64,000 bases of DNA from Arthrobacter sp. B1805. GTDB taxonomy: Bacteria; Actinomycetota; Actinomycetes; Actinomycetales; Micrococcaceae. Below are positions 29,755 to 61,966 of the stretch, in pieces (positions within the stretch are counted from its first letter, which is position 1; each line of letters opens with the position of its first letter). The notes under the pieces are model-generated. The model saw only the letters and a list, made by a program, of their open reading frames with translations. It was not told the origin of the DNA and did no database searches. Position numbers and translations under genes: made by a program. The stretch lies in assembly GCF_002929745.1 (NCBI RefSeq), contig NZ_PJIQ01000003.1:186001-250000 (forward strand), read 5' to 3'.

Positions 29755-29796
29755 GCCTCTGTAGCTCAGTAGGATAGAGCGTCCCTCTCCTAAAGG
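29755..29796 (+). pseudogene. Host tRNA-Arg(CCT), 5' half, cut by the prophage (attL side)
   Basis: Acceptor strand GCCTCTG, D-arm GCTC/GAGC, anticodon 5' stem TCCCT (29782-29786) and loop CTCCTAA (29787-29793, anticodon CCT). After TAAAGG the sequence no longer fits a tRNA. Joined to 63355-63386 it gives a canonical 74-base tRNA-Arg(CCT): anticodon stem TCCCT/AGGGA, T-stem GTCGG/CCGGC and acceptor GCCTCTG/CAGGGGC with one T-G wobble. The host gene is therefore interrupted in its anticodon loop. Confidence 0.92.
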
Positions 29797-30119
29797 TTAG
29801 AGGGAGACTTCTGCCCGGCCCCAGCACCAGGCATACCTTGCCCCTCCGGGCCATCTCCCGAGGGGCTTTCCTCGTTCAGAGCTCCGCCCCACATCAGCCA
29901 TTCGCGATCGACGCTGAAGGCTGCGGCGACCCGCTTGATCACATCGGTCTCGCCGCGTGGCGATCGACCTTTCTCGATGCCCTGGATGACACCGAACGTC
30001 ACGCCGGCTCGCAAAGCGAACTCGCGCTGACTCATACCCGTGGTGTTTCGAACCAGAAGGAAGCGGTTCGCCAAGCTGTCGACGGGCTTCCAGGGCTCGG
30101 ATGATGTCTCGATGCTCAT
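29790..30119 (-). CDS. Prophage repressor, XRE family, with stop codon on the att core
   Basis: 109 residues in the prophage. The HTH spans about 29-53 (MSQREFALRAG, then VIQGIEKGRS); residues 80-109 form a Gly/Pro/Ser-rich tail. The TAG stop is the complement of C29790-T29791-A29792, that is, host tRNA anticodon bases. In the circular phage, base 29790 is replaced by G63348, the codon becomes TAC, and the frame runs 24 codons more to a TAA at 63276-63278, ending YTYAA. So the virion form would be 133 residues with an ssrA-like end, while integration gives the short form. Expected to bind operators in 30120-30241. Confidence 0.88.
   Translation of the reverse strand: MSIETSSEPWKPVDSLANRFLLVRNTTGMSQREFALRAGVTFGVIQGIEKGRSPRGETDVIKRVAAAFSVDREWLMWGGALNEESPSGDGPEGQGMPGAGAGQKSPSNL
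29791..29796. repeat. attL core (TAAAGG)
   Basis: Six bases shared with attR (63349-63354). Bases left of it belong to the host tRNA; bases right of it belong to the phage. In the rebuilt attP the core is flanked by inverted arms CTCT and AGAG, plausible integrase core sites. Confidence 0.85.
29840..29866 (+). terminator. Terminator-like hairpin antisense inside the repressor gene
   Basis: GCCCCTCCGGG (29840-29850) pairs with CCCGAGGGGC (29857-29866) with one bulge and a 6-base loop, followed by TTTC on the + strand. It would stop transcription entering from the host tRNA promoter through attL into the back of the repressor gene. Confidence 0.45.
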
Positions 30120-30160
30120 GAAGTCATTGAATCACCTGACCATCCTTTTGCCAATACTTT

Positions 30161-30235
30161 TGTCATTCGACACGAAGTCTGTTGACAGACAGTTACGCAA
30201 CCCTCTTGCAAACAAGTTTGTCAGTGACTAACTTG
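30161..30235. promoter_or_regulatory. Operator-like palindromes between repressor and cro-like gene
   Basis: Three dyads in the divergent gap: TGTCATTCGACA (30161-30172), CTTGCAAACAAG (30205-30216) and CAAGTT-N11-AACTTG (30213-30235). The last two overlap the putative rightward promoter, so repressor binding would block it. No consensus could be tested. Confidence 0.5.
30206..30234 (+). promoter_or_regulatory. Putative rightward early promoter
   Basis: TTGCAA (30206-30211), 17 bases, TAACTT (30229-30234). The start point would fall at or next to the ATG at 30242, so the transcript may be leaderless. Confidence 0.45.
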
Positions 30236-30241
30236 TACCTC

Positions 30242-30463
30242 ATGGCTACCGCAACTCGATCGCTGATCGAAATCAAGCTCCAGGGACGTTCGCTGGAAGA
30301 GCTGGTGCGCTCCGGCCGCAGTGAGGGAAAGTCCTGGCACCGAATCACGAAAGCGATCGAAGCCGAGACGGAGATCGAGGTATCGAGCGAAACGCTCCGC
30401 CTTTGGTTCCGCCACCTGGACTCAGAGCTCGTCAGCTCGCGTTCGCAGGCGGCGTCGGCATGA
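30242..30463 (+). CDS. Small HTH protein, cro/excise-like
   Basis: 73 residues; after LIEIKLQGRSLEELVRSGRS comes a probable helix-turn-helix (SWHRITKAIEAETEIEVSSE, then TLRLWF). Divergent from the repressor with operators between them, the position of cro in actinophage immunity cassettes. It may repress the repressor or direct excision; neither is shown by sequence alone. The ATG at 30242 lies 8 bases after the putative -10 box. Converges on the minus-strand gene at 30475. Confidence 0.7.
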   Translation: MATATRSLIEIKLQGRSLEELVRSGRSEGKSWHRITKAIEAETEIEVSSETLRLWFRHLDSELVSSRSQAASA

Positions 30464-30474
30464 GCCCGCTGATG

Positions 30475-30780
30475 CTATTTGTTGCCGCTGGCGAGGGTCG
30501 CCCAATTGAGGATCTCTTCATCGCTGAGCCACCGTTTGGCTGCCTCGAGGTTGAGTGCCTCCGTCGACGTCTTGGCGCTGTCCGCGATGAAGGTCATGGG
30601 CACTCCTGCGGTGATCAAGATCTGGACGCTCCCTTGGACCCCGCCGGGGAGGGTGGAATTGACGCTTATCCACTCGCTGCCACCGCCTTCCACGACTCGC
30701 TGAATGAGCAACCGAGTCAGGTCCGCAGACGAGTCATCCATGACGTAAACCTGCCCGTTGTAGTACAGCGAGGTAGACAC
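30475..30780 (-). CDS. Hypothetical protein of the immunity region
   Basis: 101 residues from a GTG at 30780 with AAGGAG 7 bases upstream. Starts STSLYYNGQVYVMDDSSADL and contains ISVNSTLPGGVQGSVQILITAGVPMTFI, a beta-rich pattern, then a helix with KRWLSDEEILNW. No family recognised. It is one of few minus-strand genes, in the lysogenic block, so it may be expressed in the prophage (superinfection or conversion role; inference). The frame is open further upstream, but that part covers the hairpin region. Confidence 0.6.
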   Translation of the reverse strand: MSTSLYYNGQVYVMDDSSADLTRLLIQRVVEGGGSEWISVNSTLPGGVQGSVQILITAGVPMTFIADSAKTSTEALNLEAAKRWLSDEEILNWATLASGNK

Positions 30781-30848
30781 AGCGCTTCTCCTTCGGTTGG
30801 TGCACCGTCTGGTGCGGGTGTTGGAACCCCAACTGTAGGAGCAGAAGA

Positions 30849-31108
30849 GGGCGGCGCGCCGGACTCCACCGCTGACGCGCCGCCCCTCCATCAGTCGTCC
30901 GTTCGGGACCACCACGTCCAGGTGACTGGCGACCCACTGGCGGCTGGTCTCTATCAAGCGCGGTGCATCACCTGCGGGGCTTCGAAGCGGGTAGGCCCGC
31001 ATACCCTGATCCACTTCCTGAGCTACCACTAGACCCTCCGGCGGCGTCCCCCATCGCCGCCGGAGTTCGACGGGCTGGGAGCGTGCCTGAGACCCGCGCT
31101 CCCAGCCC
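30849..31108 (+). terminator. Three hairpins in a gene-poor stretch
   Basis: Within the 364 bases between 30780 and 31145: GGGCGGCGCG (30849-30858) pairs with 30876-30885; CTCCGGCGGCG (31036-31046) with 31055-31065; GGGCTGGGAGCG (31072-31083) with 31097-31108, then TTC. The last two together look like a terminator or anti-termination site before the early operon. No T tract is long enough to be sure. Confidence 0.45.
30922..31032 (+). CDS. Possible very small CxxC protein
   Basis: 36 residues from a GTG at 30922: TGDPLAAGLYQARCITCGAS then KRVGPHTLIHFLSYH. A CxxC pair and terminal His suggest a small zinc-binding phage protein, but no ribosome site is visible. Weak. Confidence 0.3.
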   Translation: MTGDPLAAGLYQARCITCGASKRVGPHTLIHFLSYH

Positions 31109-31144
31109 TTCACCCACCATCACTTCTTCCCCTGAGGACACCCG

Positions 31145-31639
31145 ATGTCAGCTACAGCATTGCCCGAATCAGGTCACGAGTCAGAGTCGCAGGAGATCTC
31201 CCTGCCGTTCGGCCTGTACTTCGGAGCGCTCAACTGCCCGCACTGGTCCAGCTACAACGACAACGATCCGAAGGCTCGGCGCGACGCGGCGTCGGTGCGT
31301 TCCGTCGAGAGGGACCGCCGCATGCGCGAGGTCCGCCGGCTACACGAGAAGGTCCATCAAGCGAAGCACGCTGCTGATTCACTCGTCGCACTCGACGCAA
31401 CTGGCTTCACCGAGGCGGCCGCTGGCCACCTCGAGGTAGCCCTGCAGAACCTCGTCAACGAGGCGAAGCAGGTCATCGGCAACATGCGGGCGGACGCCGC
31501 TGGCTGGATTGTCAACGGGCAGGCGGCAATGGCTGAGCTCGACGACGCGGCCGACCAGGGCGCCGGCGAGGATCTGCCAGTCGCACGCCCATACCCGACC
31601 CCGGCAGAGGTCCTCCAGAGCATCAGGCACGGCAAGTGA
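31145..31639 (+). CDS. Hypothetical early protein
   Basis: 164 residues. N-terminal Gly/Phe-rich block (LPFGLYFGALNCPHWSSY), then a long charged helix (ARRDAASVRSVERDRRMREV through KHAADSL), then another helix and an acidic tail. Predicted soluble, partly coiled coil. No family recognised. First gene of the long early operon after the hairpins at 31036-31108. Confidence 0.6.
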   Translation: MSATALPESGHESESQEISLPFGLYFGALNCPHWSSYNDNDPKARRDAASVRSVERDRRMREVRRLHEKVHQAKHAADSLVALDATGFTEAAAGHLEVALQNLVNEAKQVIGNMRADAAGWIVNGQAAMAELDDAADQGAGEDLPVARPYPTPAEVLQSIRHGK

Positions 31640-31654
31640 GCGCGGTGATCCACG

Positions 31655-31957
31655 ATGGCGCGCAGACTCGCACGGAACACGAGGCAGCCGGGACTGCAAG
31701 TCGAAGCCGAGAGCAAACTCCCCGATTGGGCTCGCGAGGACCTCGTCGTGTGCGGCAAGGGGCCACTGCACGGCCAATGGTTCACGCGCTCGCAGTGGGA
31801 GCAGCGGCGCCGCTCGCAACTCCGCATGCGGGAGCTCGGGTCGAGCCGCAGCCTCGGATCCCTCGACTACCTGGTGACGCACGAGGAAGTGCCGCATCCG
31901 GAGTACCCCAGCAAGACCGGCTTCCGAGCGGTACTCAAACCATCGGCCACCTCATGA
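31655..31957 (+). CDS. Hypothetical early protein
   Basis: 100 residues, very basic at the N-terminus (MARRLARNTRQPG) with a short motif DLVVCGKGPLHGQWFTRSQW. Gene starts 15 bases after the previous stop and its stop overlaps the next ATG (ATGA). No family recognised; small basic phage proteins like this often bind DNA, but nothing here proves it. Confidence 0.6.
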   Translation: MARRLARNTRQPGLQVEAESKLPDWAREDLVVCGKGPLHGQWFTRSQWEQRRRSQLRMRELGSSRSLGSLDYLVTHEEVPHPEYPSKTGFRAVLKPSATS

Positions 31958-32139
31958 GCCGCACTTCCCCCGAGGTGAAGCACCGCCGCCGATTCTTCGC
32001 CTGGCTCGCACTCTTCGCGCTCGCCGTCGCACTCATCGTCCTCTCCAGCGACTGGCTGACACCGTCCGCCGACGGCCGTCACATCCTCGCCGTATTCGCG
32101 GCACTCGGTCTGGTGTTCGAGTCGGAGCGGAAGCCATGA
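31954..32139 (+). CDS. Small membrane protein
   Basis: 61 residues with two hydrophobic segments (FFAWLALFALAVALIVL and ILAVFAALGLVF). Starts by ATGA overlap with the previous gene and ends by overlap with the next. Function unknown. Confidence 0.6.
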   Translation: MSRTSPEVKHRRRFFAWLALFALAVALIVLSSDWLTPSADGRHILAVFAALGLVFESERKP

Positions 32140-32393
32140 CGCTCAATCCGATAGACGTCATCGAGCAGGGATTCCTCCGCGGAACGGAACGCCGACTCGG
32201 GTCGATCGCTGACGAGTCCCCCGTCTTCGAGGAGCTCATGCGCCGCGACCTCGAAGTCTCCGCGCAGGACGCAGCGATCGTCGGCGTCGTTGCCCTCGAG
32301 TCCGGGGAACGCGATCAAGCAATCGACCTGCTGACCACCGCTCTTTCCCGATTCACCCACCTAAAGCACCTCGAAAGGATCGCGCTGCTATGA
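32136..32393 (+). CDS. Hypothetical early protein
   Basis: 85 residues, mostly helical and acidic (TERRLGSIADESPVFEELMR). Overlaps both neighbours by 4 bases, so it belongs to the early operon. No family recognised. Confidence 0.6.
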   Translation: MTLNPIDVIEQGFLRGTERRLGSIADESPVFEELMRRDLEVSAQDAAIVGVVALESGERDQAIDLLTTALSRFTHLKHLERIALL

Positions 32394-33763
32394 GCACCGA
32401 CATGCAGGACATTCCCCTGGCGAAGCTGGAACCACACCCACACAACGTGCGCCGGCAGCTGCAGGACCTCGACGACCTGTCCGCCTCGATCAAGGCGAAA
32501 GGCATCGTCCAGGCCCTCACCGTGGTGCCACACCCGACGGCGAAGACAAAGTACGTCGTCCTCGGTGGTCATCGCCGACTGGCGGCCGCGAAGCTCGCCA
32601 AGGTCAAGACCGCACCGTGCATGATCCGCGAGGACCTCGCCACCCCAGAAGCCCAAACCGAGTTCATGATCGTCGAGAACACGCAGCGCAACGACCTCTC
32701 GCCCATGGAGGAAGCCCGGGCATACCAGCAGCTACTCGAGCTGCCCGGCTATAACGCGAAGAAGATCTCGGAGAACACGGGCCGCAAGCCTCGCCTGGTG
32801 CAGGACCGCATCAAGCTCGCGAAGGTGACGGACCCGATCGCCGCAAAGCTCGACAGCGGACAGATCACGCTCGAGCAGGCTCTCGTCTTCGCTGAATTTG
32901 CGGACGACTCGAAGGCGACGAAGAAGCTACTTGATGACGTCGGCTCCTATAACTGGGACTATCGGGTGCGCTCCCTCCGCCAGGAGAAAAAGGCCGCCGC
33001 AGAGGCCGTCCGCACGAGGAAGGCGCTCGCCGCACTCGGAGTCGAACCCATGGCTCGCCCGGAAGGATGGCCTTGGCGGAGCGAGTACGCCCCCGTGCCC
33101 GCCGGTGGGCTCACCCCGGCCGAGCATGTCGCAGCTGGCCACAAGCCCTTGATTGACGGCACAGGTCATGCCGAGTGGGCCATCCTGCGCAGCGAACTGC
33201 CCGACGCCGAGGCCCCTCGCGAGCCCACCCCAGAAGAAATCGCGGAAGCGGAGGAGTACGAGCGGATCAAGGCTGGCCTCGACGTCGCCGACCACGTCCG
33301 CCGGCAACACCTCGAAGACATCTTTGCCACCCCACCCGCTGGCCTCGCCGCACGCCTCTTCTTGCCGCGCGTAGTCAGCACCTTCACCCAACTCAAGAGC
33401 GCTCGCGGCCTCATCGGACTGTCCGAGGAGGCGAAACCGGCCGACATCGAAGCAACGCTCGCCAAGCTATCGCTTGAGCAGCTCGTCGTAGTCGACGGCA
33501 TGGCCGGGGTCTATAACAGCGCGGATCTCCTCAACCCCGACTACTGGGGCGAGGGCCGATACGGCAACGACTTCACAAAGGGGCAGCGCGATCGGCTGGC
33601 GAACCTCTTCGGCTACCAGTGGAGCGACATTGAGAAGGAGGCCATGGAGAGGCTGCGCCTCAAGGCAGAGGAACGGCGCGCACGGATCGAGCGTGAGAAG
33701 GCGGCAGAGGCCGCAAAGCAGGCCGAAGGCGACGAGGAGGCGGACGATGCCGACGCGGCCTGA
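32390..33763 (+). CDS. ParB/Spo0J-domain protein
   Basis: 457 residues. The N-terminal ParB nuclease/CTPase-like domain (about 5-100) has IPLAKLEPHPHNVRRQ, VLGGHRRLAAAKLA and VENTQRNDLSPMEEARAYQ; a KorB/HTH-like region follows (about 110-200). The rest is phage-specific, ending in a Lys/Glu-rich coiled tail. No ParA is encoded nearby, so plasmid-like partition is unlikely; stand-alone ParB-domain proteins in phages may act in replication or as nucleases. Overlaps its upstream neighbour (ATGA). Confidence 0.85.
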   Translation: MSTDMQDIPLAKLEPHPHNVRRQLQDLDDLSASIKAKGIVQALTVVPHPTAKTKYVVLGGHRRLAAAKLAKVKTAPCMIREDLATPEAQTEFMIVENTQRNDLSPMEEARAYQQLLELPGYNAKKISENTGRKPRLVQDRIKLAKVTDPIAAKLDSGQITLEQALVFAEFADDSKATKKLLDDVGSYNWDYRVRSLRQEKKAAAEAVRTRKALAALGVEPMARPEGWPWRSEYAPVPAGGLTPAEHVAAGHKPLIDGTGHAEWAILRSELPDAEAPREPTPEEIAEAEEYERIKAGLDVADHVRRQHLEDIFATPPAGLAARLFLPRVVSTFTQLKSARGLIGLSEEAKPADIEATLAKLSLEQLVVVDGMAGVYNSADLLNPDYWGEGRYGNDFTKGQRDRLANLFGYQWSDIEKEAMERLRLKAEERRARIEREKAAEAAKQAEGDEEADDADAA

Positions 33764-34331
33764 TCCAGCTGCGCTCGCCGCCCTGCCGAAGCCATCGCCA
33801 ACCAGGTGCCCGGACTGCATGCGTCGAGTCCGCAAGGTCAGCGAGAAAGCGTGGGAGTGGCCCGGCACAGTCGCCATGACGACCCGCGACGGCCACTGCG
33901 CACCCTGCAAACGGGCCCGCCAGACAGCCCTAATCGAGTCCGATCGGCTCGCGCTCGCCGCCGCGCAAGAAGAGGCGCTCGCTGAAGCGGAGGAGCGCGA
34001 GCGACTGGCAGCGGAAGCAGCTCGGAAGGCACAGGAAGTGGAGTCGTTGCGCCAGGCCGAGGAAGCCGCGGCTGCACTGGTCGAGCGGAAGCGCCCGGAC
34101 TGTTCCGAGCACGGCTGCACAACAGAAGCGCTCACGCGAGGCCTCTGCTCGAAGCACTATCGGGCGTTCCGCCGCAATCAGAGCGGCGATCGGCCGATGC
34201 CCGGCCCGGATGGTTTGACGCCGGCGCTGCGCCAGGCACAGCAATCACTCGAGGCCTACTGGGCCGCTCGTCGACGCCGCGGCGTCCCACCGGAAGGAAT
34301 AGGGCATGAGCCCCTCGCAGAAGCTGGATGA
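33747..34331 (+). CDS. Zinc-binding protein with coiled coil
   Basis: 194 residues. Two Cys-pair sites: RCPDCMRR with GHCAPCKRA near the N-terminus and CSEHGCTTEALTRGLCSKHY near the C-terminus, the latter common in actinophage proteins. Between them is a long Ala/Glu/Arg helix (about 60-120). Starts inside the end of the ParB-like gene. Probably nucleic-acid binding (inference). Confidence 0.65.
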   Translation: MPTRPDPAALAALPKPSPTRCPDCMRRVRKVSEKAWEWPGTVAMTTRDGHCAPCKRARQTALIESDRLALAAAQEEALAEAEERERLAAEAARKAQEVESLRQAEEAAAALVERKRPDCSEHGCTTEALTRGLCSKHYRAFRRNQSGDRPMPGPDGLTPALRQAQQSLEAYWAARRRRGVPPEGIGHEPLAEAG

Positions 34332-34596
34332 CACGGACCTCCGAGAGGACAGCATCCGGCTGATCGACGCTGAGCAGTACTCCCGCGCCCCCTACTTCGT
34401 GACATGGGACCTCCCACACCCGCGCGCAACCGTGAAACCCACGGGCGACGGGAGGTGGCGGGCGGTCCTCTGGGAGGAACCCGGCGTGATCATGAGCGAC
34501 CACGTCCATGCCGGCGCTGTCACCATGCTCCTGCAGGCAGACGCCGTCGAGTGGGCCACTCGCATCGTCGGCTGGGAACGCCAGGTGCGCCGATGA
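34306..34596 (+). CDS. Hypothetical early protein
   Basis: 96 residues, acidic start (SPSQKLDDTDLREDSIRLID), then a beta-rich stretch with GDGRWRAVLWEEPG. Overlaps the previous gene by 26 bases and the next by 4. No family recognised. Confidence 0.6.
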   Translation: MSPSQKLDDTDLREDSIRLIDAEQYSRAPYFVTWDLPHPRATVKPTGDGRWRAVLWEEPGVIMSDHVHAGAVTMLLQADAVEWATRIVGWERQVRR

Positions 34597-35048
34597 ACCA
34601 GCAACCCAGAAGCTACTACCAAGAAGAGGAACCGGTGACCCAGAACGAAAAGGCAGAGAAGATCGTCACTGGTCAGCTCTCGCGCTTGAGTAAGCGCGAC
34701 GACTGGGCCGAGGATGACACCGCTGTCGGAGGGCAGGCAGCACACATAGTGAGGCTACTGAGCGAGGCGGGGCTGCTCCGCACCCTTCCTAAAGGGCAAT
34801 CAACGGAGCGGGCGCGTCAGGCCGAGATCCGAAACGAGCGCGAGGACCGCACCGCGACGTGGGGGACCTGCTCGAACCAGGACTGCCTTACGAGCATGGT
34901 CATCTACCCGCAGGCCGACCGGCAGACCGACTTACCCGACGAGGACGAGTGGGAAAACTCGACGTTCTTCATTGAGTGCCCGGTGTGCGACTCGAACATG
35001 GACTGGGGCGGCACCGACCATCCTGCGGACATCATCCTCAACTACTGA
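34593..35048 (+). CDS. Hypothetical protein with C-terminal zinc ribbon
   Basis: 151 residues. Charged N-terminal half; the C-terminal half has WGTCSNQDCLTSM and FFIECPVCDSNMDWGG, together a CxxxxC/CxxC zinc ribbon. ATGA overlap with the preceding gene. Function unknown. Confidence 0.6.
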   Translation: MNQQPRSYYQEEEPVTQNEKAEKIVTGQLSRLSKRDDWAEDDTAVGGQAAHIVRLLSEAGLLRTLPKGQSTERARQAEIRNEREDRTATWGTCSNQDCLTSMVIYPQADRQTDLPDEDEWENSTFFIECPVCDSNMDWGGTDHPADIILNY

Positions 35049-35164
35049 TGGGAGCTGCCGTGGCTGAGCTAATCAACCCCGAGCCAAATCGCTGCCCCTA
35101 CTGCCCGTTCGTCCACCCGGTGACCACGCTCGTCACTGACCACATCACCAAGGAGCACCTATGA
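35048..35164 (+). CDS. Mini C2H2-like zinc-finger protein
   Basis: 38 residues, with CPYC, then H and H in TDHITKEHL: a single C2H2-like finger. Starts at the last base of the previous stop codon and overlaps the next gene by 4 bases, which supports it as a real gene despite the size. Confidence 0.55.
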   Translation: MGAAVAELINPEPNRCPYCPFVHPVTTLVTDHITKEHL

Positions 35165-35934
35165 GCGACAACCTCACCCCGCAGGAGCAGGCACAGGCCG
35201 CCTCCGGGCTGTTCGAGCAAGCAGCGCAGCGCGAAGCCGACATCCTTCGCGACGCCGTGACCAAGGACGAGTTCCCCGGCTTCGAATCGAGGAAGGACGG
35301 CGTGCGTCGCGCCTTCCGCATGCTCGCAGCTGGAGAAGCGTTGAACGAGCGACAGACCGACTTGGTCGCAGAGACGCTCATCCCCGTCTTCCGGCACTTC
35401 GAGACGGGCATACAGGCACTGAACTCGCTGACCGAGGATGGCATCCGCCTGATTGATTGGAACGCCGTCGCCGACAGCCTGGCCGAGACCGAGGACCTAC
35501 CAAACGAGTTCCCCTTCCGAGCGAAGGTCGAAATCTCTGCTCCTCCGATTGAGACCACTGACGCACGGGTGGTCGCTGAGTGGATCGCGCAAAGCCGGCG
35601 GGTCAGAAGCCTCATCCCACAGGACGAGCCCCAGCAGTATGGAGAGCACGCACTGGTCGAGCACCTGGTGTCCAACCCCGGCATATGTCTCGTCTATCTG
35701 GCAGAGGCGCTCGCGGACGTGCTTGACCGCTGGTCAACACGTATCAGGGGCCTGAGAACGTGCACCTGTACCAGCTTCTGTCCTGAAGATCGCGACGAAA
35801 ACGAATGCAGCCACTGCCGGCTTCTGGACCCGTACGACCCCTGCCCTGTCATTGGTTTCGGGTGCGGTTCCGACTGCCAAGACGACGGCCATTGCACGCC
35901 GGCTCAGCAGGCTGCAGCTCAGAAGGGCCTCTGA
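35161..35934 (+). CDS. Hypothetical early protein with Cys-rich C-terminus
   Basis: 257 residues. A helical N-terminal region (about 1-110), a middle region (to about 200), and a C-terminal Cys cluster (RTCTCTSFCPEDRDENECSH and CGSDCQDDGHC) that could bind zinc. Sits in the overlapping early operon. No family recognised. Confidence 0.6.
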   Translation: MSDNLTPQEQAQAASGLFEQAAQREADILRDAVTKDEFPGFESRKDGVRRAFRMLAAGEALNERQTDLVAETLIPVFRHFETGIQALNSLTEDGIRLIDWNAVADSLAETEDLPNEFPFRAKVEISAPPIETTDARVVAEWIAQSRRVRSLIPQDEPQQYGEHALVEHLVSNPGICLVYLAEALADVLDRWSTRIRGLRTCTCTSFCPEDRDENECSHCRLLDPYDPCPVIGFGCGSDCQDDGHCTPAQQAAAQKGL

Positions 35935-36668
35935 TGATCCTCGACGTGAACACCCTCGACCTGAGGAAGGCGCTGCAGTCGGTGCTGCCCCACGCGGCCG
36001 ACGATGTCCCGGCGATCGCCGGCGTCAGCATCACGGCCACCGTGGACAACCTGTACCTGACAGCCACGAACCGGTACACCATCGGGCACGCGATCGCGTC
36101 GGTATGGGATGCCCGACGGCTAACCGGCAACCCGGCGGACGACACGTTCTTCATCTCGATCGAGACTGCGAAGGAGATCCTCGCGCTGTTCAAGTCGTCG
36201 GGTAAGAAGAGCGACGACGAGGTCGGCGTCGGTGAGGCCATGCGGATCACCGTCGACGACGAGAATCTGCGCTTCCTCGACGTCGCTGGCCTCTTCCCTG
36301 GCAAGCTCCTGCAGATCCCGCGCGAGGAGTCTGAGCCTTTCCCGGTGAAGTGGGCGAGCGTCTTCCTCAACAGCTTGCGGGCGAACAAGGTCCTGCCGGA
36401 GCGCCTCGCGACGTCGGGCAAGTACCTGCGCCTCTTTTCCTCGGCCGCGGCCGCCTACGGCGAGCCACTCGTCATCGAACCGACAGAGGGCAGCAGCATC
36501 CTCATCTCGTGCGGCGAGAGCTTCCTCGGCCTGCTCATGCCCGTCCGGGCCAGCGACGAGACAGAAGTCTATCGACAGATCGAAGCGTGGCGGATGGGTT
36601 GGGCTCACCGTCTGCCCGAGCTGGCGGCCGCGATGCCCCCGATGATGCGAGAGGACGTGAAGGCATGA
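35934..36668 (+). CDS. Phage sliding-clamp-like protein (DnaN-like)
   Basis: 244 residues. The segment VDNLYLTATNRYTIGHAIAS matches the repeated clamp signature (L-x-x-T-A-T-x-R-Y), with AMRITVDDENLRF later. Shorter than the bacterial beta clamp (about 370), as is usual for phage versions. Would tether a polymerase, presumably the host's since none is encoded here. The start overlaps the previous stop (TGATG). Confidence 0.7.
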   Translation: MILDVNTLDLRKALQSVLPHAADDVPAIAGVSITATVDNLYLTATNRYTIGHAIASVWDARRLTGNPADDTFFISIETAKEILALFKSSGKKSDDEVGVGEAMRITVDDENLRFLDVAGLFPGKLLQIPREESEPFPVKWASVFLNSLRANKVLPERLATSGKYLRLFSSAAAAYGEPLVIEPTEGSSILISCGESFLGLLMPVRASDETEVYRQIEAWRMGWAHRLPELAAAMPPMMREDVKA

Positions 36669-36964
36669 TGGCGCTAAAGCAGGCTCCCTATTACTGGTTC
36701 GAGTGCGACAAGTGCGGCGTGTCCTCGGGTGAGGACAGCGACTACTCCGCCTGGTCCGACCACGGACACGCCCACGACCAAATAGTGAATGACGACTGGT
36801 GGATCAGCGCGGACGAAACCAACCACTACTGCTGGTCCTGCGCGCCGAAATGCGATGAGTGCAAAGCGACGCTCGATAACGATGGCGGATGCGAGGACTG
36901 CGACAAACCAGCGGACCCCGGACTGATTCCGGGTCAGACTGCCATCAGCGGGGATGCCCAGTGA
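36665..36964 (+). CDS. Zinc-ribbon protein
   Basis: 99 residues with three Cys-pair sites: FECDKCGVSS, CWSCAPKCDECKATL and GGCEDCDK. The central DDWWISADETNHYCW is Trp-rich. Likely a small metal-binding accessory protein; function unknown. ATGA overlap with the clamp gene. Confidence 0.6.
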   Translation: MMALKQAPYYWFECDKCGVSSGEDSDYSAWSDHGHAHDQIVNDDWWISADETNHYCWSCAPKCDECKATLDNDGGCEDCDKPADPGLIPGQTAISGDAQ

Positions 36965-37080
36965 TCGCCGCACTGTTGTACCTCGCGATGCGGGAAGCGC
37001 TCGGCATCGTCGACGACGCCCGTAATCAGACACAAGCCGACTTCGCGCTCGCCGGCCCTTCGGATACGAGTACGACGTGA
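36961..37080 (+). CDS. Very small early protein
   Basis: 39 residues from a GTG at 36961 that overlaps the previous stop (GTGA). N-terminal hydrophobic stretch (IAALLYLAMREALGIV). No family; supported by the overlaps on both sides. Confidence 0.45.
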   Translation: MIAALLYLAMREALGIVDDARNQTQADFALAGPSDTSTT

Positions 37081-37469
37081 GCAAGCGACGCGAAGAGTTT
37101 TACGGCTCGAAGCCTCTGTCCCACGCTGCGGCAATCTGCACCTACGACGCGAAGTTTACTGAAGGTCCGATATGCGGCAAGCCCGCCACTTGGCATGCCT
37201 GGCCTGGCACGCCCCCCGAGACCCGAGAGCCCTTCGACGTGTACGCCTGCGATGCTCACTGGCCGATCCTTGACCCGAAACGGCTCTGGGACTATCACCG
37301 ACTCGGCGGTGCGTGCGGCATACCCGGCGCCCGGTGGTATGCCGGCGCCCGCCAGGGTCAAGGCCTTTGCCGCCACGACCTGGACGATGAAACGCTCACC
37401 GCTGCGCTCGCAGATCCGGAAGGCCAAGCACTTGTGCAGGCCATCCACGACCGAAAGCTGAACCGCTAA
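37077..37469 (+). CDS. Hypothetical early protein
   Basis: 130 residues from a GTG overlapping the preceding stop. Contains ICTYDAKF, GPICGKPATWH and YACDAHW, a spaced Cys/His pattern resembling small HNH-like or zinc folds. Not recognised further. Confidence 0.55.
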   Translation: MSKRREEFYGSKPLSHAAAICTYDAKFTEGPICGKPATWHAWPGTPPETREPFDVYACDAHWPILDPKRLWDYHRLGGACGIPGARWYAGARQGQGLCRHDLDDETLTAALADPEGQALVQAIHDRKLNR

Positions 37470-37473
37470 CCCA

Positions 37474-38559
37474 ATGCCATGGCTCCGCTCCGGCGACACC
37501 GCCGCCAACCACCCCATCGCGCTCGCCGCGCTGGAGCACGACGACTTCGACGACCGCCTCTTGAACGAGGTCTTCGGGTTCGTGATGCGCTGCGCACTGC
37601 AGTCGACCGCTCACCTGACCGACTATGTCGTGTCCCGAGGCACTGCCATCCAGATGGCTGGAGCCTCGAGGGTGGGCATGCTGACGGACGTGGCCACGTT
37701 CGCCGGCTATTGGGTGGAGCAGCGCGTGATGATCGACGGGGCGGAGCGCACGGTCTACAAGTTGGTTGAGGACCCTGACTTCATCCATATGCGGACGAAG
37801 GAAGAGATTGAGTGGGAGAGGCAGCGCAAGAACGACAACTCGAACCCCGCGCTGATCATCCCGGTCCGGTTCCGCGACGGCGACGCCTGCCGTTACTGCG
37901 GCATGGTTGTGAACTGGAACGCACGCAAGGGACGCCTAGCGGGCACGTACGACCATCGGAAGCCAAGGGCACGCGACACCACTGTGGACGACCTCGTCGT
38001 CGCGTGCGGCAAGTGCAACGGCATCAGGTCCGACAACCCGGACGCTGACCGCATATGCCCCCTCCTCCCAGCACCATCGAAGCCGTACTACTCCCCGAAG
38101 ACCATCGAATGGTTTGCGGGTCACGAGTGGGCGCAGAGCAACGGTTACAGGCCACCACGGCCTCCGGCTCGCAGCATCCCGCCAGGACAGCCATCAGGCA
38201 ACGGAACCACCGGCCAGAAGGCATCAGAGGCACCACGGACGAAGGGCAACGGACACCCCGGCTCTTCGCAGGGCAAGGGAAACACCGGCCCACAAGACGA
38301 CGCAAGACCCCGAGAACAAGCCGAAGAGAAGACCCCTCCGCCGCGACCTGCTGAATATCCGCAGATTCCAGCAGATCCAGCAGGTCGGAGGTCTACAGGA
38401 TCTGGAATATCCGGGTCGGGTAGGGACGGGACGGGACGGGTAGGTGAGGTTAGGTCTGGTCTCCCAGACCAGCCACCCTCCAAACCTGACCCATCCTCCG
38501 AATCTCCGAAGCGCAAACGAAACAGATCGAGACCCCGCAGGAGAGGCAACAGTTCATGA
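37474..38559 (+). CDS. HNH-domain protein with low-complexity tail
   Basis: 361 residues. N-terminal phage-specific domain (about 1-115) with RCALQSTAHLTDYVVSRGTA; a central HNH nuclease module (about 130-185) with CRYCG, YDHRKPRARDTT and CGKCNGIRS; then a Pro/Gly/Ser/Lys-rich disordered tail (about 225-361). The N-terminal part is of the kind found beside replication genes in actinophages (recollection). Could nick DNA for replication or act as a homing-type nuclease. Confidence 0.75.
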   Translation: MPWLRSGDTAANHPIALAALEHDDFDDRLLNEVFGFVMRCALQSTAHLTDYVVSRGTAIQMAGASRVGMLTDVATFAGYWVEQRVMIDGAERTVYKLVEDPDFIHMRTKEEIEWERQRKNDNSNPALIIPVRFRDGDACRYCGMVVNWNARKGRLAGTYDHRKPRARDTTVDDLVVACGKCNGIRSDNPDADRICPLLPAPSKPYYSPKTIEWFAGHEWAQSNGYRPPRPPARSIPPGQPSGNGTTGQKASEAPRTKGNGHPGSSQGKGNTGPQDDARPREQAEEKTPPPRPAEYPQIPADPAGRRSTGSGISGSGRDGTGRVGEVRSGLPDQPPSKPDPSSESPKRKRNRSRPRRRGNSS

Positions 38560-38912
38560 CCCGCTTCCCCAGCATGACCAGCGAGGAGTACCGGCTGTGG
38601 TTGTGCAACCAGTGGACTGAGTCCCAGCTGCAGGGCAAGATCCTCCAGCTGGCCGACGAGTTGCACTGGCTGAGCTACCACACCCATGACAGTCGGCGTT
38701 CACGTAAGGGTTGGCCGGACCTGTTCATGATTCACGTCAGGCAGAAGCGGTTCCTGGTCTGGGAACTCAAGAGCGAGAAGGGCAAGACAACCATCGAGCA
38801 GCGCGCATGGATCGCAGCATTCGCCGCCATTGGCATCGAGGTGGAAGTACTCCGGCCGGCCGACTGGGCAAGCGGACATATCGAGCGGCAGCTGAGAGGA
38901 CAGGCAGCATGA
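38556..38912 (+). CDS. VRR-NUC domain nuclease
   Basis: 118 residues with the PD-(D/E)XK-type VRR-NUC pattern: KGWPDLFMIH, then FLVWELKSEKGKTTIEQRAW. Catalytic Asp, Glu and Lys are present (GWPD, WELK). Typical of phage junction-type endonucleases for DNA processing. ATGA overlap with the HNH gene. Confidence 0.85.
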   Translation: MTRFPSMTSEEYRLWLCNQWTESQLQGKILQLADELHWLSYHTHDSRRSRKGWPDLFMIHVRQKRFLVWELKSEKGKTTIEQRAWIAAFAAIGIEVEVLRPADWASGHIERQLRGQAA

Positions 38913-39718
38913 CGAAGCCAACGAACGCAGAGCTGCAGCTGCAGAAGCGGTACCTAGTCCCCGGCCGCGGATCGATTCCGTACAGCCTGGCCATCGAGCA
39001 CACCGACTACCCGCGGTACTGCATCATCGGGGACCAGCACGAGCCGGCCGAGGCCCGGTCCAACCTGTGCTTCGGATGCTGGAAGCAACTCAAGTACGAC
39101 CTCGAGCTGATCCATGACCGGTGGGACAACCTCGACGACGCACTGATGACCAGCCGTCGACCATCTGACGGGGAGCGGGCAGGATCCAGCACCGAGGGCT
39201 CCGCTGCTCCAATCGACCTGCGGGTCTCCGAGGCAATGGGACTGGCTCGGCACGCGGTGTATTCGATCCTCCGCACTCTGGTGGAGGACCAGCCGTTCGA
39301 GGTATTCACTACGACCGAGGGAACCTGGGCGCTCGCGGGTCGGCTAGCTCGCAGACATGTTGGGTACATCGCAAGCCATCCAGACGAGCAAGTGACCGAG
39401 GCCGCGTACATTGCGACATGGAAGGCGGCGCGGGATATTGAGAAGGTGACGCACCCGCCCATCACCACCCAGCCGATCGAGTCGCACTGCCATCAGTTCC
39501 ACGACCCGGGCGACGGTAGCCGGCGTCCGTGCCCTGGTCAGCTGGTCGGAGTTGTGATGCCGGACGGGACGACCACCATTCAATGCAGCGAGGACCCGGA
39601 CCACTGGATCCCGATGGACGAGTGGCTGATGCTGCAGACGAGAAGGGACAGGCTGGCGAAGAAGTACACGAGCGCGCCGACACGCCGCCTGCGCGGTGCG
39701 TCCCAGCAGGGTGCTTGA
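38909..39718 (+). CDS. Hypothetical phage protein with Cys/His sites
   Basis: 269 residues. N-terminal zinc-like site (YCIIGDQHEPAEARSNLCFG then CWKQLKYDL), helical middle, and a second site (SHCHQFHDPG, RRPCPGQLVG, QCSEDPDHW). A Glu/Asp-rich finish to a basic tail (APTRRLRG). Family not recognised; last gene before the packaging block. Confidence 0.6.
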   Translation: MTKPTNAELQLQKRYLVPGRGSIPYSLAIEHTDYPRYCIIGDQHEPAEARSNLCFGCWKQLKYDLELIHDRWDNLDDALMTSRRPSDGERAGSSTEGSAAPIDLRVSEAMGLARHAVYSILRTLVEDQPFEVFTTTEGTWALAGRLARRHVGYIASHPDEQVTEAAYIATWKAARDIEKVTHPPITTQPIESHCHQFHDPGDGSRRPCPGQLVGVVMPDGTTTIQCSEDPDHWIPMDEWLMLQTRRDRLAKKYTSAPTRRLRGASQQGA

Positions 39719-39765
39719 CAAGCCAGTACATTGATCCTCGATGGTGGTGTTCTGCACCCAGAGCG

Positions 39766-39797
39766 AAGAGCCTCGACCCTAGCGGGTCGGGGCTCTT
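39766..39797 (+). terminator. Hairpin between early and late blocks
   Basis: AAGAGCCTCGACCC pairs with GGGTCGGGGCTCTT (14 bp, one wobble) around a 4-base loop. Followed by TGCC, so not a classical T tract. Marks the end of the early operon. Confidence 0.55.
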
Positions 39798-39818
39798 GCC
39801 GTATCCGGGGGTGCGGGC

Positions 39819-40145
39819 ATGCCGAAGCTCGACGAGTGGGACCCACGACGCGGCCGCAGCGGCCGGCCGTGGCAACGACTGGTCGCAAAGTACTGCGTGC
39901 CCGGTGCGATCTGCGCCTGGTGCGGGACCGAGATCGTCTTCGGTCTCCGGCCTCGGCATTCGCTTGGCCCATCGCTTGACCACATCGTTGCGCTCGAGGA
40001 TGGCGGGCATCCAACAGCTGAATGGAACTTGCAACCCATGCATCTCGGGTGCAACTCGAAGAAGGAAGCCGCGCGGCGCCGGAAGCTGGCACAGCCGGTA
40101 CTCCGGCCAGTGTCGAAACTCCGCGCAGCACGTAATCGCCGCTAG
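39819..40145 (+). CDS. HNH endonuclease
   Basis: 108 residues. Complete HNH: CAWCGTEI, SLDHIVALEDGG and NLQPMHLGCNSKKEA. Small HNH proteins next to the terminase are standard in HK97-type phages and help cut concatemers during packaging (family knowledge). Its position just before the terminase genes fits. Confidence 0.88.
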   Translation: MPKLDEWDPRRGRSGRPWQRLVAKYCVPGAICAWCGTEIVFGLRPRHSLGPSLDHIVALEDGGHPTAEWNLQPMHLGCNSKKEAARRRKLAQPVLRPVSKLRAARNRR

Positions 40146-40334
40146 TCAGAGTCACCTTCGCGCGAAATCGGTCCGGGTTTTTGAGCCCGCGCCAGTGTGG
40201 GCGACCCGCGCATCTTCCATTTTTTCTCTCCCCCGCGAAACCCCGGGTAGCGCCCTACAGATGAGGGGCGATCTCGCTGGCCGCGCTCGCCGCCGGCACC
40301 CTTCGAAATCCCGATACAGATTGGAACCAGCCGC
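40146..40334. other. Noncoding gap before terminase: candidate cos/pac region
   Basis: 189 bases with no convincing gene, lying between the HNH endonuclease and the packaging genes. Includes a TTTTT run (40183-40187) followed by GAGCCCGCGCC, a TTTTTT run (40220-40225) and CCCCGCGAAACCCCGGG. Packaging sites usually sit here, but no cleavage site can be named from sequence. Confidence 0.3.
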
Positions 40335-40907
40335 ATGAGCAAGACGACCGCTGTAGCAAAGCTCACCGGGAAGGCCGCATCGATCAGCGGCACAGTTGGC
40401 CTGTCGTTCTACGCCGACTACAACGACGAGCGGAATAAGGCTTGGGCGAAGTACACGCCGGCCCTCTCAATTAGCATCACTGTGCTGGAATCCGTTGCTG
40501 AGCAGTTTGAGCAGGGCGCAAATTACCTCGTGACCTTCGAGGCGGTGGACGACGGCGAGCTTTCGGAAGAGCCGGCCTCCGTCGTCTACTCCGTCGAGGA
40601 CGTGGTCAAGGAACTTCAGACCAACCCCCGCCACGCTTCATACGCCAAGAACGACCACACGGAGCAGTGGGACTCCGGCTATAAGGAAGCTCTGCGCGAC
40701 GTCCTCGAAGCTCTGAACGTGGCGGTCACTCCCGACTGGAGTGACCCCGAGCAGGTCCGCGCCGAGTACGAGCGCACCGGGATCAACCGGACGAACGAAC
40801 CGCCCGCAGGCAAGCCCATCGAGGAACTGACCTCGGCCGAGGCGCACGCTGCTCACTTCGCAGCGAAGCGGGAGGCCGCTCTGGTGCGGGAGGGGCGCCG
40901 ACCCTAG
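40335..40907 (+). CDS. Hypothetical phage protein
   Basis: 190 residues. Starts with a beta-rich domain (GKAASISGTVGLSFYADYN) and continues with YLVTFEAVDDGELSEE, then helical segments. No family recognised. First of the packaging/head block and close upstream of the small terminase candidate. Confidence 0.6.
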   Translation: MSKTTAVAKLTGKAASISGTVGLSFYADYNDERNKAWAKYTPALSISITVLESVAEQFEQGANYLVTFEAVDDGELSEEPASVVYSVEDVVKELQTNPRHASYAKNDHTEQWDSGYKEALRDVLEALNVAVTPDWSDPEQVRAEYERTGINRTNEPPAGKPIEELTSAEAHAAHFAAKREAALVREGRRP

Positions 40908-40950
40908 GCCCGCAGATCGTCCATCGAGGCTCTGAGAGAAAGGCGGACCG

Positions 40951-41442
40951 ATGACCGACCAGCCGATTCCGTTCCGTCATGGCAATGCGGGCCCGAGCGC
41001 CACGGGTTACCGGAAGGGCTGCCGGTGCGCTGGCTGCCGGAAGGCGAAGCGTGAGGACCAGGCGGCCTACCGTGCCGCGAAGAAGCTGAAGGAGTCTGGC
41101 GGCCCGGCGCCGGCCTTCGAGCCCGCAGCGCCGCTCGTCGAGCCGTCGTCGGTCGGCATCAGCTGGGATGCGCCGGCCGGACCGATCGAGCAGGCCCTCG
41201 ACGGTGAGCTCGCGGCGTTGATCGGGGAGCCTCCGTTCAAGAAGACCCTGATCGTGCTGGCCAGGTACAACGCCCGCGTGCTGGATCAGATCCCCGCGGC
41301 CGAGCGCTTCGACCTCGTCTCCGGCATGGAGTCCCGCTTGTTCAACGTCTTCGACCGGCTCCGCCGCGTCGAGTCGGCGCCCGGCGCGGGCTCGTGGGAC
41401 ATGTCCGGCCTGCTCCAGCCTGACGCGGCGGATGAGCAGTAA
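40951..41442 (+). CDS. Probable small terminase subunit
   Basis: 163 residues. N-terminal Cys/Arg cluster (YRKGCRCAGCRKAKREDQAA) followed by a helical domain (LARYNARVLDQIPAAERFDL). Assigned from size, composition and position, overlapping the large terminase by 11 bases. DNA recognition by the N-terminus and oligomerisation by the helices would be the family pattern; not proven. Confidence 0.6.
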   Translation: MTDQPIPFRHGNAGPSATGYRKGCRCAGCRKAKREDQAAYRAAKKLKESGGPAPAFEPAAPLVEPSSVGISWDAPAGPIEQALDGELAALIGEPPFKKTLIVLARYNARVLDQIPAAERFDLVSGMESRLFNVFDRLRRVESAPGAGSWDMSGLLQPDAADEQ

Positions 41443-42877
41443 CCCCCGGAACCCTCCACCTCGCTTCGCCACGCCGCGCAACCCCGCCCGACAGACCCTC
41501 GGCGGCTCCGTCTGCAAGGTCATGCAGGCCGCCGGCAACACTCCGATGCCCTGGCAGCGGGACGCGCTCGCCGTGGCCTGCGAGATCGATCCGGCAACAG
41601 GAGGGTTTTGGTACGACACCGTCATCGCGATCGTGCTCCGGCGTGCGGGAAAGACCACGATCAGCCGCGCGAAGCTGACACACCGGGCTCTGACAACGGT
41701 CGACGGCCGCATGATCTACACCGCTCAGAACCGACTGAAGGCACTCAAGCGACTCCGCGACGACTTCTACCTGCCGACCCTGCGCTCGCCGCAGCTCAAG
41801 GAATCGCTCGCGAAGCCGCGTTGGCGGGGCGGCGAGGAGGCGGTCCGGTACAAGACGGGCGCGGAGCTGGCGATCGACGCTGTGTCCGACAACTCCGGGC
41901 ACGGCGATATGAACCACGAGGGCCACATCGACGAGGCGTACGCGCACTCCGACAACACCCTCGAGGGCGGCATCCAACCGACCTTGCTCACCGTCGTTGG
42001 CTCGCAGCTGTGGATCCTTTCCGCGGCCGGCAACACCCGGTCAACTTACCTAGCTGAGAAGAGGGATATCGGCCGCGCACTGATCGAGTCCGGGCGCCAG
42101 TCGAGGACCTGCTACATCGAGTACTCGGCACCGGAGGACGCCGACCCGAACGACCCCGAGACTTTGGCCAACACGCACCCTGCAGGTGGCCACACGATCG
42201 ACGTCGAACGAGTCATGGGGCTGCGTGAGAACTCGACCGATCTCGCCGAGTGGGAGCGCGCCTGGTACGGCTGGTGGCCACAGGCGAAGGCTCCGCCGAG
42301 GATCATTCCGACGTCACTGTGGGAGGACGGCTACATCACCTCCGACGAGTCCGCATGGGAGGGTACGCCGCGTTGGGCGCTCGACATCTCCCCCGACAGG
42401 GAGTGGACGAGTATCGGAATGGCCGCCAGGTCGACGGATCCGGAGGCGAAGGCCTACATCGAGCTGTACGAGCATCGCGTTGGAACAGCCGGTGCAGTCG
42501 ACGAGCTGGCCGCCCTCGCGAGTCAGTTCGGCGGGTGGAAGGTCGCGATCGACGCCGGTGGCGGCGCCCGGTCGCTGGTGCCTGACCTCGAGGCGGCCGG
42601 CTTCGAAGTCGTGAAAGTCCCGGGCCCGGAAAGGATCGCGGCGTGTGGCGGCTTCTACGACGACGCCCTGGCGAACGATCTGCGGTACCTGAACGACCCG
42701 GAACTCAACGCGGCGATGGTCGCAGCGCAGAAGCACTACATCGGCGGCAAGGCGTTCATCTTCGCGCGCGGCCGGACACAGCAGGACATCAGCTCTCTCT
42801 ACGCGGTGACCTTCGCCCGCTGGCTCCTCATCGAGACAGCGGAGGACGACGGCGATCCACTCGACTCAATCCTCTAG
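41432..42877 (+). CDS. Terminase large subunit
   Basis: 481-residue DNA-packaging motor. ATPase: modified Walker A LRRAGKTTISR and Walker B in HEGHIDEAYAH; nuclease: acidic residues in WALDISPDREW and VAIDAGGGARS, and a C-terminal acidic patch. Overlaps the small subunit. Length and order fit HK97-like siphoviruses. Confidence 0.9.
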   Translation: MSSNPRNPPPRFATPRNPARQTLGGSVCKVMQAAGNTPMPWQRDALAVACEIDPATGGFWYDTVIAIVLRRAGKTTISRAKLTHRALTTVDGRMIYTAQNRLKALKRLRDDFYLPTLRSPQLKESLAKPRWRGGEEAVRYKTGAELAIDAVSDNSGHGDMNHEGHIDEAYAHSDNTLEGGIQPTLLTVVGSQLWILSAAGNTRSTYLAEKRDIGRALIESGRQSRTCYIEYSAPEDADPNDPETLANTHPAGGHTIDVERVMGLRENSTDLAEWERAWYGWWPQAKAPPRIIPTSLWEDGYITSDESAWEGTPRWALDISPDREWTSIGMAARSTDPEAKAYIELYEHRVGTAGAVDELAALASQFGGWKVAIDAGGGARSLVPDLEAAGFEVVKVPGPERIAACGGFYDDALANDLRYLNDPELNAAMVAAQKHYIGGKAFIFARGRTQQDISSLYAVTFARWLLIETAEDDGDPLDSIL

Positions 42878-42887
42878 GAGGCGAACC

Positions 42888-43028
42888 ATGAAGCAGGCCA
42901 TCACGACGGTCCTCGACCTGTGCGGCATCGCGCTGTTGGTCGCAGGCATCGCCCTCATCTACATCCCGGCGGCGTTCCTCGCCGCCGGGATGGGCCTGCT
43001 GGCCATCTCTTGGAGGGCGAGTAAGTGA
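42888..43028 (+). CDS. Small membrane protein between terminase and portal
   Basis: 46 residues: MKQAITTVLDLCGIALLVAG then IALIYIPAAFLAAG and a basic end. AGGAGG lies 8 bases before the ATG, and the stop overlaps the portal GTG (GTGA). Two hydrophobic stretches. A real small gene by its ribosome site and tight packing; function unknown. Confidence 0.7.
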   Translation: MKQAITTVLDLCGIALLVAGIALIYIPAAFLAAGMGLLAISWRASK

Positions 43029-44882: not shown

Positions 44883-44988
44883 TCCATCCTGTGGGCAGGA
44901 CGAAATCCACCCGCACTCCCCCGCAACACAACTTCCACCCCGGCGCCACCGCGGCCCGGGGTTTGTCATTTCCGGAAAGGGGAATGCA

Positions 44989-46209: not shown

Positions 46210-46303
46210 CCAGCAGCTCCACTCCTGACGGGCAGGCGGACACCGTTCCCCTGCCCGTCAGCGACCACGCACCAAGCAACAGCCCTACCTGAGGAGCATG
46301 ATC

Positions 46304-46699
46304 ATGGCTGAGAAGAAGAAGGAAGTCCGGATGATCGGCAGGATCTCCGGCACGCGCGACGGCAAGGACTGGCCCGCGCCCGGCGAGAAGATCACCCTGC
46401 CCGAGACGGAGGCCCTGCAGCTGATTGCCTCCGGCCTCGCCGCCGATCCCACAGTCGAGGAGAAGGCGCTCGCCGCCAAGGCCGGCGTCGAGACCGCCAC
46501 GACCTCGGGCAACCGGCCCCTGGTCACCGAGACGGCAGCCGACGCGAAGGCCCGCGCCGACGCTCTCGCGGCCGAACAGGCAGCCAGTGACCTGGCGGCC
46601 GCGGAAGCAGCTGCGAAGCTCACAGCGGACGCAGCGAAGTCCTCGGCCGGCAAGGCACCCAACGCGACGAAGAACGCCGATAAGGCCGACGCGAAGTAA
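46304..46699 (+). CDS. Lys/Ala-rich head protein
   Basis: 131 residues from the ATG at 46304, 7 bases after GAGGAG; an ATG at 46298 is too close. N-terminal domain RMIGRISGTRDGKDWPAPGE then a long Ala/Lys/Asp low-complexity tail (KADAK end). Similar small proteins sit after capsid genes in actinophages, possibly decoration or connector related; not shown. Confidence 0.65.
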   Translation: MAEKKKEVRMIGRISGTRDGKDWPAPGEKITLPETEALQLIASGLAADPTVEEKALAAKAGVETATTSGNRPLVTETAADAKARADALAAEQAASDLAAAEAAAKLTADAAKSSAGKAPNATKNADKADAK

Positions 46700-61965: not shown

Positions 61966-61966
61966 C

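Follow-up and report, generated by a model that had tools for sequence, protein, structure and literature searches.

Integration-dependent immunity (IDI) has been described for phage BPs and its relatives (PMC4557955) and for Mycobacterium abscessus prophages (PMC9934374), and it has been predicted in Gordonia phages (PMC5559632; PMC4929511) and in Bifidobacterium prophages (PMC6109161). In BPs, according to the accessible part of the description, attP lies inside the repressor ORF, the stop codon at attL is supplied by the host, the prophage form of the repressor is the shorter one (103 aa against 136 aa), only the virion form carries an ssrA-like -AA end, and int lies beside rep. The BPs integrase is reported to have a C-terminal degradation signal too. 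For the Arthrobacter phage Galaxy, the available portion of PMC5513430 describes an arrangement reminiscent of IDI, without recognizable tags and with attP outside the repressor.

A second strategy, tRNA-dependent lysogeny (PMC10865867; Guerrero-Bustamante and Hatfull 2024), uses a tyrosine integrase and a short core over a tRNA gene which is not rebuilt upon integration, and the phage encodes a tRNA of the same isotype. In the accessible text of that paper IDI is named only as a contrasting system, and its Table 2 gives 8 bp as the shortest core and holds no tRNA-Arg site. The two strategies come close to each other in the M. abscessus tandem prophages prophiT36-2a/b, which use IDI and one of which carries a tRNA-Thr while the tRNA at attL is impaired; in the part of PMC9934374 available, this tRNA is a compensation within the tandem pair.

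Here we analyze a prophage in Arthrobacter sp. B1805 (NZ_PJIQ01000003.1, positions 186,001-250,000, forward strand; this whole 64,000-nt stretch is referred to as the window), which very probably joins these two known lysogeny strategies through one anticodon. The repressor and gene-order features listed above for BPs recur in it, with repressor forms of 133 and 109 aa and a related integrase. In contrast to BPs as described in the accessible text, the core is only 6 bp long, no tRNA 3' half is coded, the stop arises from a mismatch at tRNA nucleotide 35, and the host tRNA is not rebuilt but replaced by one that the phage brings. The features given for tRNA-dependent lysogeny are found as well, with a core shorter than any in the table cited and at a tRNA-Arg gene, and the design is that of a single phage, unlike the tandem pair. 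In the literature searched, the coverage of which excludes most subscription papers and bioRxiv, the coupling of IDI to a phage-replaced tRNA is unreported: a single 6-bp recombination event in an anticodon would both create the repressor stop and break a tRNA that the phage replaces. A first-pass annotation of this DNA had stressed the non-mycobacterial host, which is not new in view of the available accounts of Gordonia and Bifidobacterium cited above.

Attachment sites and the repressor stop

The prophage lies between two copies of a 6-bp core, each flanked by one part of a host tRNA gene:

29791..63354 (about 33.6 kb): prophage; PHROG matches of selected ORFs include a ParB-like protein, HNH endonuclease, terminase, portal, major head protein and tape measure
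29791..29796: attL core TAAAGG (6 bp), read from the sequence
63349..63354: attR core TAAAGG (6 bp), read from the sequence
29755..29796, plus strand: 5' part of host tRNA-Arg(CCT), the attB half at attL, cut by the prophage in the anticodon stem
63355..63387, plus strand: 3' part of host tRNA-Arg(CCT), attB half

The left neighbor of the core is host C29790 at attL and phage G63348 at attR, and the right neighbor is phage T29797 at attL and host G63355 at attR. Since the bases flanking both cores differ, the identity between the sites is exactly 6 bp. Joining the host flanks (29796|63355) gives a 75-nt tRNA-Arg(CCT) that folds into a cloverleaf with ARAGORN, and of 37 other genomes searched within the genus, 35 match the 128-nt joined empty site across an unbroken tRNA. 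The remaining two, G029 (83% complete) and G031 (99% complete), lack a close match to this site. G031 is a single contig; given this and its completeness, its tRNA-Arg(CCT) may be dispensable or diverged. The attL core sits at the center of an inverted repeat whose 7-bp arms, TCCCTCT and AGAGGGA, are 10 bp apart. When scored with 9-bp arms and a 10-bp spacer, attL reaches 7/9, attP 6/9, and attB and attR 5; a score of 6 is reached by 1.5% of prophage positions. The repeat is supportive, short of decisive.

The repressor gene spans both ends of the prophage, and the features that bear on it are as follows:

29790..30119, minus strand: repressor in the short prophage form, 109 aa, HTH_3 (Pfam PF01381, E=3.6e-7; phrog_2328, transcriptional repressor, E=3.2e-14)
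29790..29792, minus strand: stop codon TAG that ends the prophage form of the repressor, complementary to tRNA nucleotides 35-36-37
63276..63348, minus strand: 3' end of the virion-form repressor at attR, coding YKSDGSNVVELRPASAAPAYTYAA, stop TAA at 63276-63278
30242..30463, plus strand: small divergent protein, 73 aa, cro-like by position
61967..62830, minus strand: tyrosine integrase ending -LSIVA, 287 aa from TTG 62830 or 274 aa from ATG 62791 (PF00589, E=1e-24)

Stretches of Gordonia phages that carry the annotation immunity repressor share 42-50% identity with the repressor, among them those of Clown (44%) and Santhid (50%). In standard tRNA numbering, the anticodon loop of the interrupted gene reads C32 T33 C34 C35 T36 A37 A38 and the core starts at T36. 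Among the 12 positions compared, attP (CTCTTG|TAAAGG) and attB (CTCTCC|TAAAGG) differ at nucleotides 34 and 35 only. Nucleotide 35 sets the antisense codon, with C giving TAG and G giving TAC; the TAG at attL therefore depends on attP and attB carrying G and C, respectively, at this nucleotide, just outside the core. It had been claimed earlier that the repressor TAG lies on the attL core and takes C29790, T29791 and A29792 from the host. The stop does lie on the core, but C29790 (nucleotide 35) is the only base unique to the host, T and A being part of the common core.

The circular form is restored by the join 63348|29791, which is equivalent to 63354|29797. The wording of the first-pass annotation, 63349 leftwards to 29797 rightwards, would omit five bases of the core; 63348|29791 produces the 133-aa frame. 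TAG then becomes TAC and the repressor gains 24 residues, from 109 to 133 aa, reading ...SPSNL|YKSDGSNVVELRPASAAPAYTYAA across the junction, where the first codon of YKSDGSNVVELRPASAAPAYTYAA takes its T and A from the core. Joining the sequence in this way reproduced the proposed readthrough to the TAA at 63276-63278 and the C-terminus -AYTYAA. The attP core thus lies inside the repressor ORF, and the stop of the prophage form depends on a bacterial base at attL. A promoter scan of 29780-30700 returned no sigma-70-like promoter, which we count against the proposed reading.

Followed along its minus strand, the circular form has rep first, then attP and int; rep and int become adjacent once the ends are joined, int being the downstream gene of the two and read in the direction of rep, and the cro-like gene is divergent. 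This order and the two repressor sizes, pointed out previously as matching known IDI, were confirmed from the ORFs. The integrase also resembles those of Charlie and Redi. The 73-aa divergent protein has no Pfam or PHROG match; we call it cro-like because of its position and its match to Santhid, where the stretch concerned carries the annotation HTH gp32 (57 aa aligned at 42% identity; E=6e-6, obtained with a local database of small size). No family besides PF00589 matches the integrase at E<=0.01, and the missing N-terminal Pfam match is a weak sign as to the armless type. Among the 60 matches listed of 554 phage records, the integrase is 44-46% identical to phage integrases, and the relatives listed include WST1, IdentityCrisis, Phrann, Rem711, Charlie and Redi. 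Identity is 45% to Charlie and 46% to Redi, presumably both cluster N phages, and 43% to Brujita. Cluster N is one of the IDI clusters named in the accessible part of PMC4557955. The C-terminus of the window integrase is -LSIVA, that of Rem711 -GIVA and that of Santhid -SLVA, and the integrases of Arthrobacter cluster FF phages, discussed below, end in -AA in 8 of 8 cases; we count the -IVA end of the window integrase against the proposed reading.

Several other genes and signals of the prophage were noted. A ParB-like protein (32390-33763), present in this integrating phage, is 28-32% identical to ParB-like proteins of cluster FF. The minus-strand ORF 60741-61601, which sits between the tail-end gene and the phage-borne tRNA-Arg, has an N-terminal hydrophobic stretch and a GDS-like motif and looks SGNH-hydrolase-like by eye; a GDS-like motif is likewise present in the neighboring ORF 58839-60749. 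A tRNA-Cys(gca) called by ARAGORN at 63204-63282 was rejected, as it overlaps a long G+C stem followed by T5 (approximately 63226-63261), a terminator-like hairpin. This hairpin is more likely a plus-strand terminator, sited to stop transcription running antisense into the repressor across attP.

The tail of the virion-form repressor

An ssrA-like tag with two C-terminal alanines is present on the virion form of the repressor only. The tmRNA tag of the host is AEQKRTDFALAA, ending -FALAA, and the fact that the virion form ends in -YAA rather than -LAA is counted against the proposed reading. One simple possibility is that this is an ordinary prophage in which the repressor happens to end at attL and the virion extension is fortuitous and without a role. 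At least 24 codons remain open at 68% of sampled positions in this G+C-rich DNA; the open extension is thus uninformative and was rejected as evidence in itself. What is informative, and speaks against chance, is that the repressor stop falls exactly on the core and that the extension ends in two Ala codons, which precede just 24 of the 2079 stop codons in the window (1.2%; both strands, all frames). The tail can also be aligned with YKSNASGTVVDLRPASQDPEGDQIAAA, a remnant that in Arthrobacter sp. HY1533 (L094) immediately precedes an int of 50% identity. None of 20,000 shuffles reached the score of this alignment, for a remnant chosen by eye among seven relatives. Taken with the recurrence of the arrangement in a second lysogen and the codon-position pattern of the related tails, both described below, these results make a chance extension very improbable.

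In the int-upstream DNA of the seven relatives a clearly similar tail was found in HY1533 only; an ORF of L082 ends -PAAA, and none was seen by eye in the remaining ones. Among seven genomes of the family with a related integrase, repressor-like matches were weak and confined to one of the seven, and their attL ends were not found. A scan of viral contigs with the 109-aa repressor found no relative. An IMG/VR record with a 100% identical integrase (L006/L115) was discarded as independent evidence since all of its 40-base probes, sampled every 400 bases, fall within the window.

We also compared the ends of 17 repressors from annotated phage records, eight of them from cluster FF, leaving out prophiGD36-2, which is a prophage form. 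Against the 24 of 2079 stops in the window, twelve of these end in -AA, two in -VA, two in -TA and one in -IT; the last is the phiT45-1 repressor (-RIRIT), which is outside the -AA pattern and was kept among the 17. Another case against the pattern is the repressor-like ORF next to the closest independent integrase (L116, 54%), which ends -PFPA. Several further int-upstream repressor-like ORFs, left unscored, end in -AA or -VA (for example L123, L126, L134 and L129).

Judged from the joined sequence, the earlier proposal that this prophage uses the IDI switch is supported. In the virion genome the repressor gene would span attP and code for a 133-aa protein whose ssrA-like -YAA end presumably leads to its degradation by a ClpXP-type protease. 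The tyrosine integrase would recombine attP with the anticodon stem-loop of host tRNA-Arg(CCT) over the 6-bp identity TAAAGG. Integration would turn the Tyr codon TAC into TAG and leave an untagged 109-aa repressor, presumed to be stable and active. Because the host letter removes the probable destruction tag, immunity should start only after insertion.

The interrupted tRNA gene and its phage-borne counterpart

The prophage also carries a tRNA gene of its own:

61893..61966, plus strand: phage-borne tRNA-Arg(CCT), called by ARAGORN, abutting the 3' end of int on the opposite strand

Integration mispairs the anticodon stem and removes the T arm of host tRNA-Arg(CCT), and ARAGORN calls no tRNA at the attL or attR junction in the window. 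With attB overlapping the tRNA gene, the 6-bp core is too short for rebuilding it. The genome (79 contigs) has 46 RF00005 matches, and ARAGORN was applied to loci covering all 46; the phage copy is the only intact tRNA-Arg(CCT) among them. Several positions distinguish it from the rebuilt host gene. The same integration that would create the repressor stop would thus break the host tRNA, and the prophage tRNA-Arg(CCT) beside int should replace the broken gene. Excision should reverse both the shortening of the repressor and the breakage of the tRNA.

The need for the phage tRNA can be questioned while IDI itself is accepted as real, in which case tRNA-Arg(CCT) would be a translation helper that lysogeny does without. 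The host retains a tRNA-Arg(TCT) (L036), and tRNA-Arg(TCT) might read AGG by wobble, so that tRNA-Arg(CCT) may not be essential; in addition, G031 has no close match to the CCT tRNA, and phages carry tRNAs for other reasons too. The phage gene, however, is of the same isoacceptor as the broken one, is the only intact CCT copy found and abuts int, and an analogous pairing with TCT tRNAs is seen in the FF phages and in a second lysogen. Furthermore, among 108 loci with this integrase type, including the window prophage, a tRNA is found within 2 kb 3' of int in two, although many of the 108 contigs end near int. On balance we consider a role restricted to translation rather unlikely. The second of these two loci, L185 (IMG/VR 2765235938), has a tRNA-Lys(ttt) at 832-905, immediately beyond the 3' end of a related int and on the other strand from it; the contig ends at this int, and the single HTH match in the record is far from it. 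If nucleotide 35 decides in the way described above, the codon at a tRNA-Lys site would become TAA.

A different challenge comes from the likeness of attP to another tRNA. It is identical to the intact tRNA-Thr(TGT) of the host over 11 bp (CTCTTGTAAAG) in the register of the anticodon loop, which exceeds the 6 bp shared with tRNA-Arg, and attR of the HY1533 prophage resembles, by eye, the 3' half of tRNA-Thr(TGT). The true attB could then be tRNA-Thr(TGT), with insertion into tRNA-Arg(CCT) being off target and the TAG a by-product; use of secondary sites is reported for a tRNA-defective mutant in the accessible text of PMC10865867. We regard such a capture of a secondary site as distinctly unlikely: the phage carries the very isoacceptor that is broken, ARAGORN finds no tRNA-Thr in the window, and the second lysogen (G358) and the FF phages repeat both the pairing with an Arg tRNA, there TCT, and the mismatch. 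A Thr-like G35 is moreover needed for the open TAC in the virion, and the Thr match is better read as ancestry.

The preferred reading remains that tRNA-Arg(CCT) is the proper site, and an ancestral attP may have used tRNA-Thr(TGT) before the phage moved to tRNA-Arg(CCT). G35 would have been kept in attP because a C there would stop the virion repressor gene. An origin of attP by deletion of the tRNA 3' half is not claimed, as it rests on few residues. The Thr-like anticodon loop kept in attP suggests a route between tRNA sites for such phages.

Recurrence in cluster FF phages and a second lysogen

The first-pass annotation had advised looking among Arthrobacter phages for tagged repressors whose genes contain attP. 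A tblastn search with the repressor led to Arthrobacter phage Popper, which has an annotated tRNA-Arg(tct) beside int. The phages of cluster FF that were examined number eight: Popper, Elesar, Zaheer, Cole, Nandita, Ryan, Gusanita and QuinnAvery. Their repressor homologs end in -AA (five), -TA (two) or -VA (one), and a tRNA-Arg with TCT anticodon lies 3' of int in all eight, adjacent in seven and two genes off in Gusanita. The sequence CAACCTTGTAATCCAAAGGC is identical inside the repressor gene of all eight and contains the predicted attP. Its 11-base part CCTTGTAATCC has one mismatch to the tRNA-Arg(TCT) loop CCTTCTAATCC, at nucleotide 35, and this single base again decides between TAC and TAG; the reference loop is from the tRNA-Arg(TCT) of the window genome (G000 L036), not from the A. 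globiformis gene. A ParB-like gene is a further shared feature. Unlike the window prophage, the FF phages have small genes between rep and int, and their tRNA-Arg is TCT rather than CCT.

The same arrangement recurs in an integrated state. When the Popper integrase was compared with 395 genomes of the family, matches at E<=1e-50 were found in three, one of them partial. G358 has a repressor homolog on the contig that carries int, at a distance of 39 kb from it. At attL the end of this repressor, ...VSDPKPLD-TAG, falls on the 5' half of a tRNA-Arg(TCT), and at attR the tRNA 3' half is followed by YKVGGSAEVLAFPLRREHFADLPLEIAA-stop, a remnant ending -EIAA. The shared 6-bp core reads TAATCC, its left-hand neighbor being C in one copy and G in the other. 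Another tRNA-Arg(TCT) copy lies 3' of int; its first nine bases are N, which is why ARAGORN did not call it. No repressor match was found in the other two genomes with a Popper-type integrase. In one genome (G387), a tRNA-Arg(TCT) at L223 10084-10157 lies near a partial FF-integrase match; this may be an FF-like prophage in decay.

Within the tails of the FF phages and of G358, changes number 179, 208 and 383 at codon positions 1, 2 and 3 (summed over pairs), a third-position excess as expected for translated sequence. Counted against this, codon differences among the nine FF-type tails are more often nonsynonymous (370) than synonymous (172), and the window tail is clearly above shuffles in comparison with only two of these nine (Nandita, Ryan). 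The FF integrases are 27-28% identical to the window integrase; at this distance, the design common to both is either old or convergent.

The attachment site of FF phages was not described in the accessible parts of the literature searched (PMC13097055, PMC12766476, PMC12821334 and PMC10871062; QuinnAvery, IsHungry, Kihatsu and Gusanita). Of eight FF phages, all but Elesar are reported to have a second tyrosine integrase, and QuinnAvery forms lysogens in approximately 53% of host cells, with the role of its two integrases left open in the available text (PMC13097055); the accessible portion of the Kihatsu paper likewise leaves open which of the two works. The second FF integrase (L202-L207) is located on the other side of tRNA-Arg; in all eight phages examined, -AA is the end of the integrase encoded on the strand of the repressor. 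Gusanita is reported, in the part of PMC10871062 available, to form clear plaques, which we count against the proposed reading. This reading predicts the lysogeny route of the isolated cluster FF phages and favors the integrase on the repressor's strand, between repressor and tRNA-Arg.

The window prophage, the FF-like lysogen and, by their sequences, the FF phages likely represent a class of Micrococcaceae temperate phages in which a conserved attP/attB mismatch at nucleotide 35 serves as a genetic switch and places a double lock, of immunity and of survival, on integration. By this logic, tRNAs with U36, A37 and either C or U at position 35 (Arg AGR, Ser AGY, Lys and Asn) could serve as sites, whereas at Thr and Ile/Met tRNAs no stop would arise in the frame. 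The 6-bp core would carry both strategies at once, with the repressor frame reading the anticodon antisense and taking its stop from bases that the host can hardly change. If this is true, two anticodon bases of the host together with A37, read backwards, are the stop that should activate immunity, and the host relies on the tRNA of its phage.
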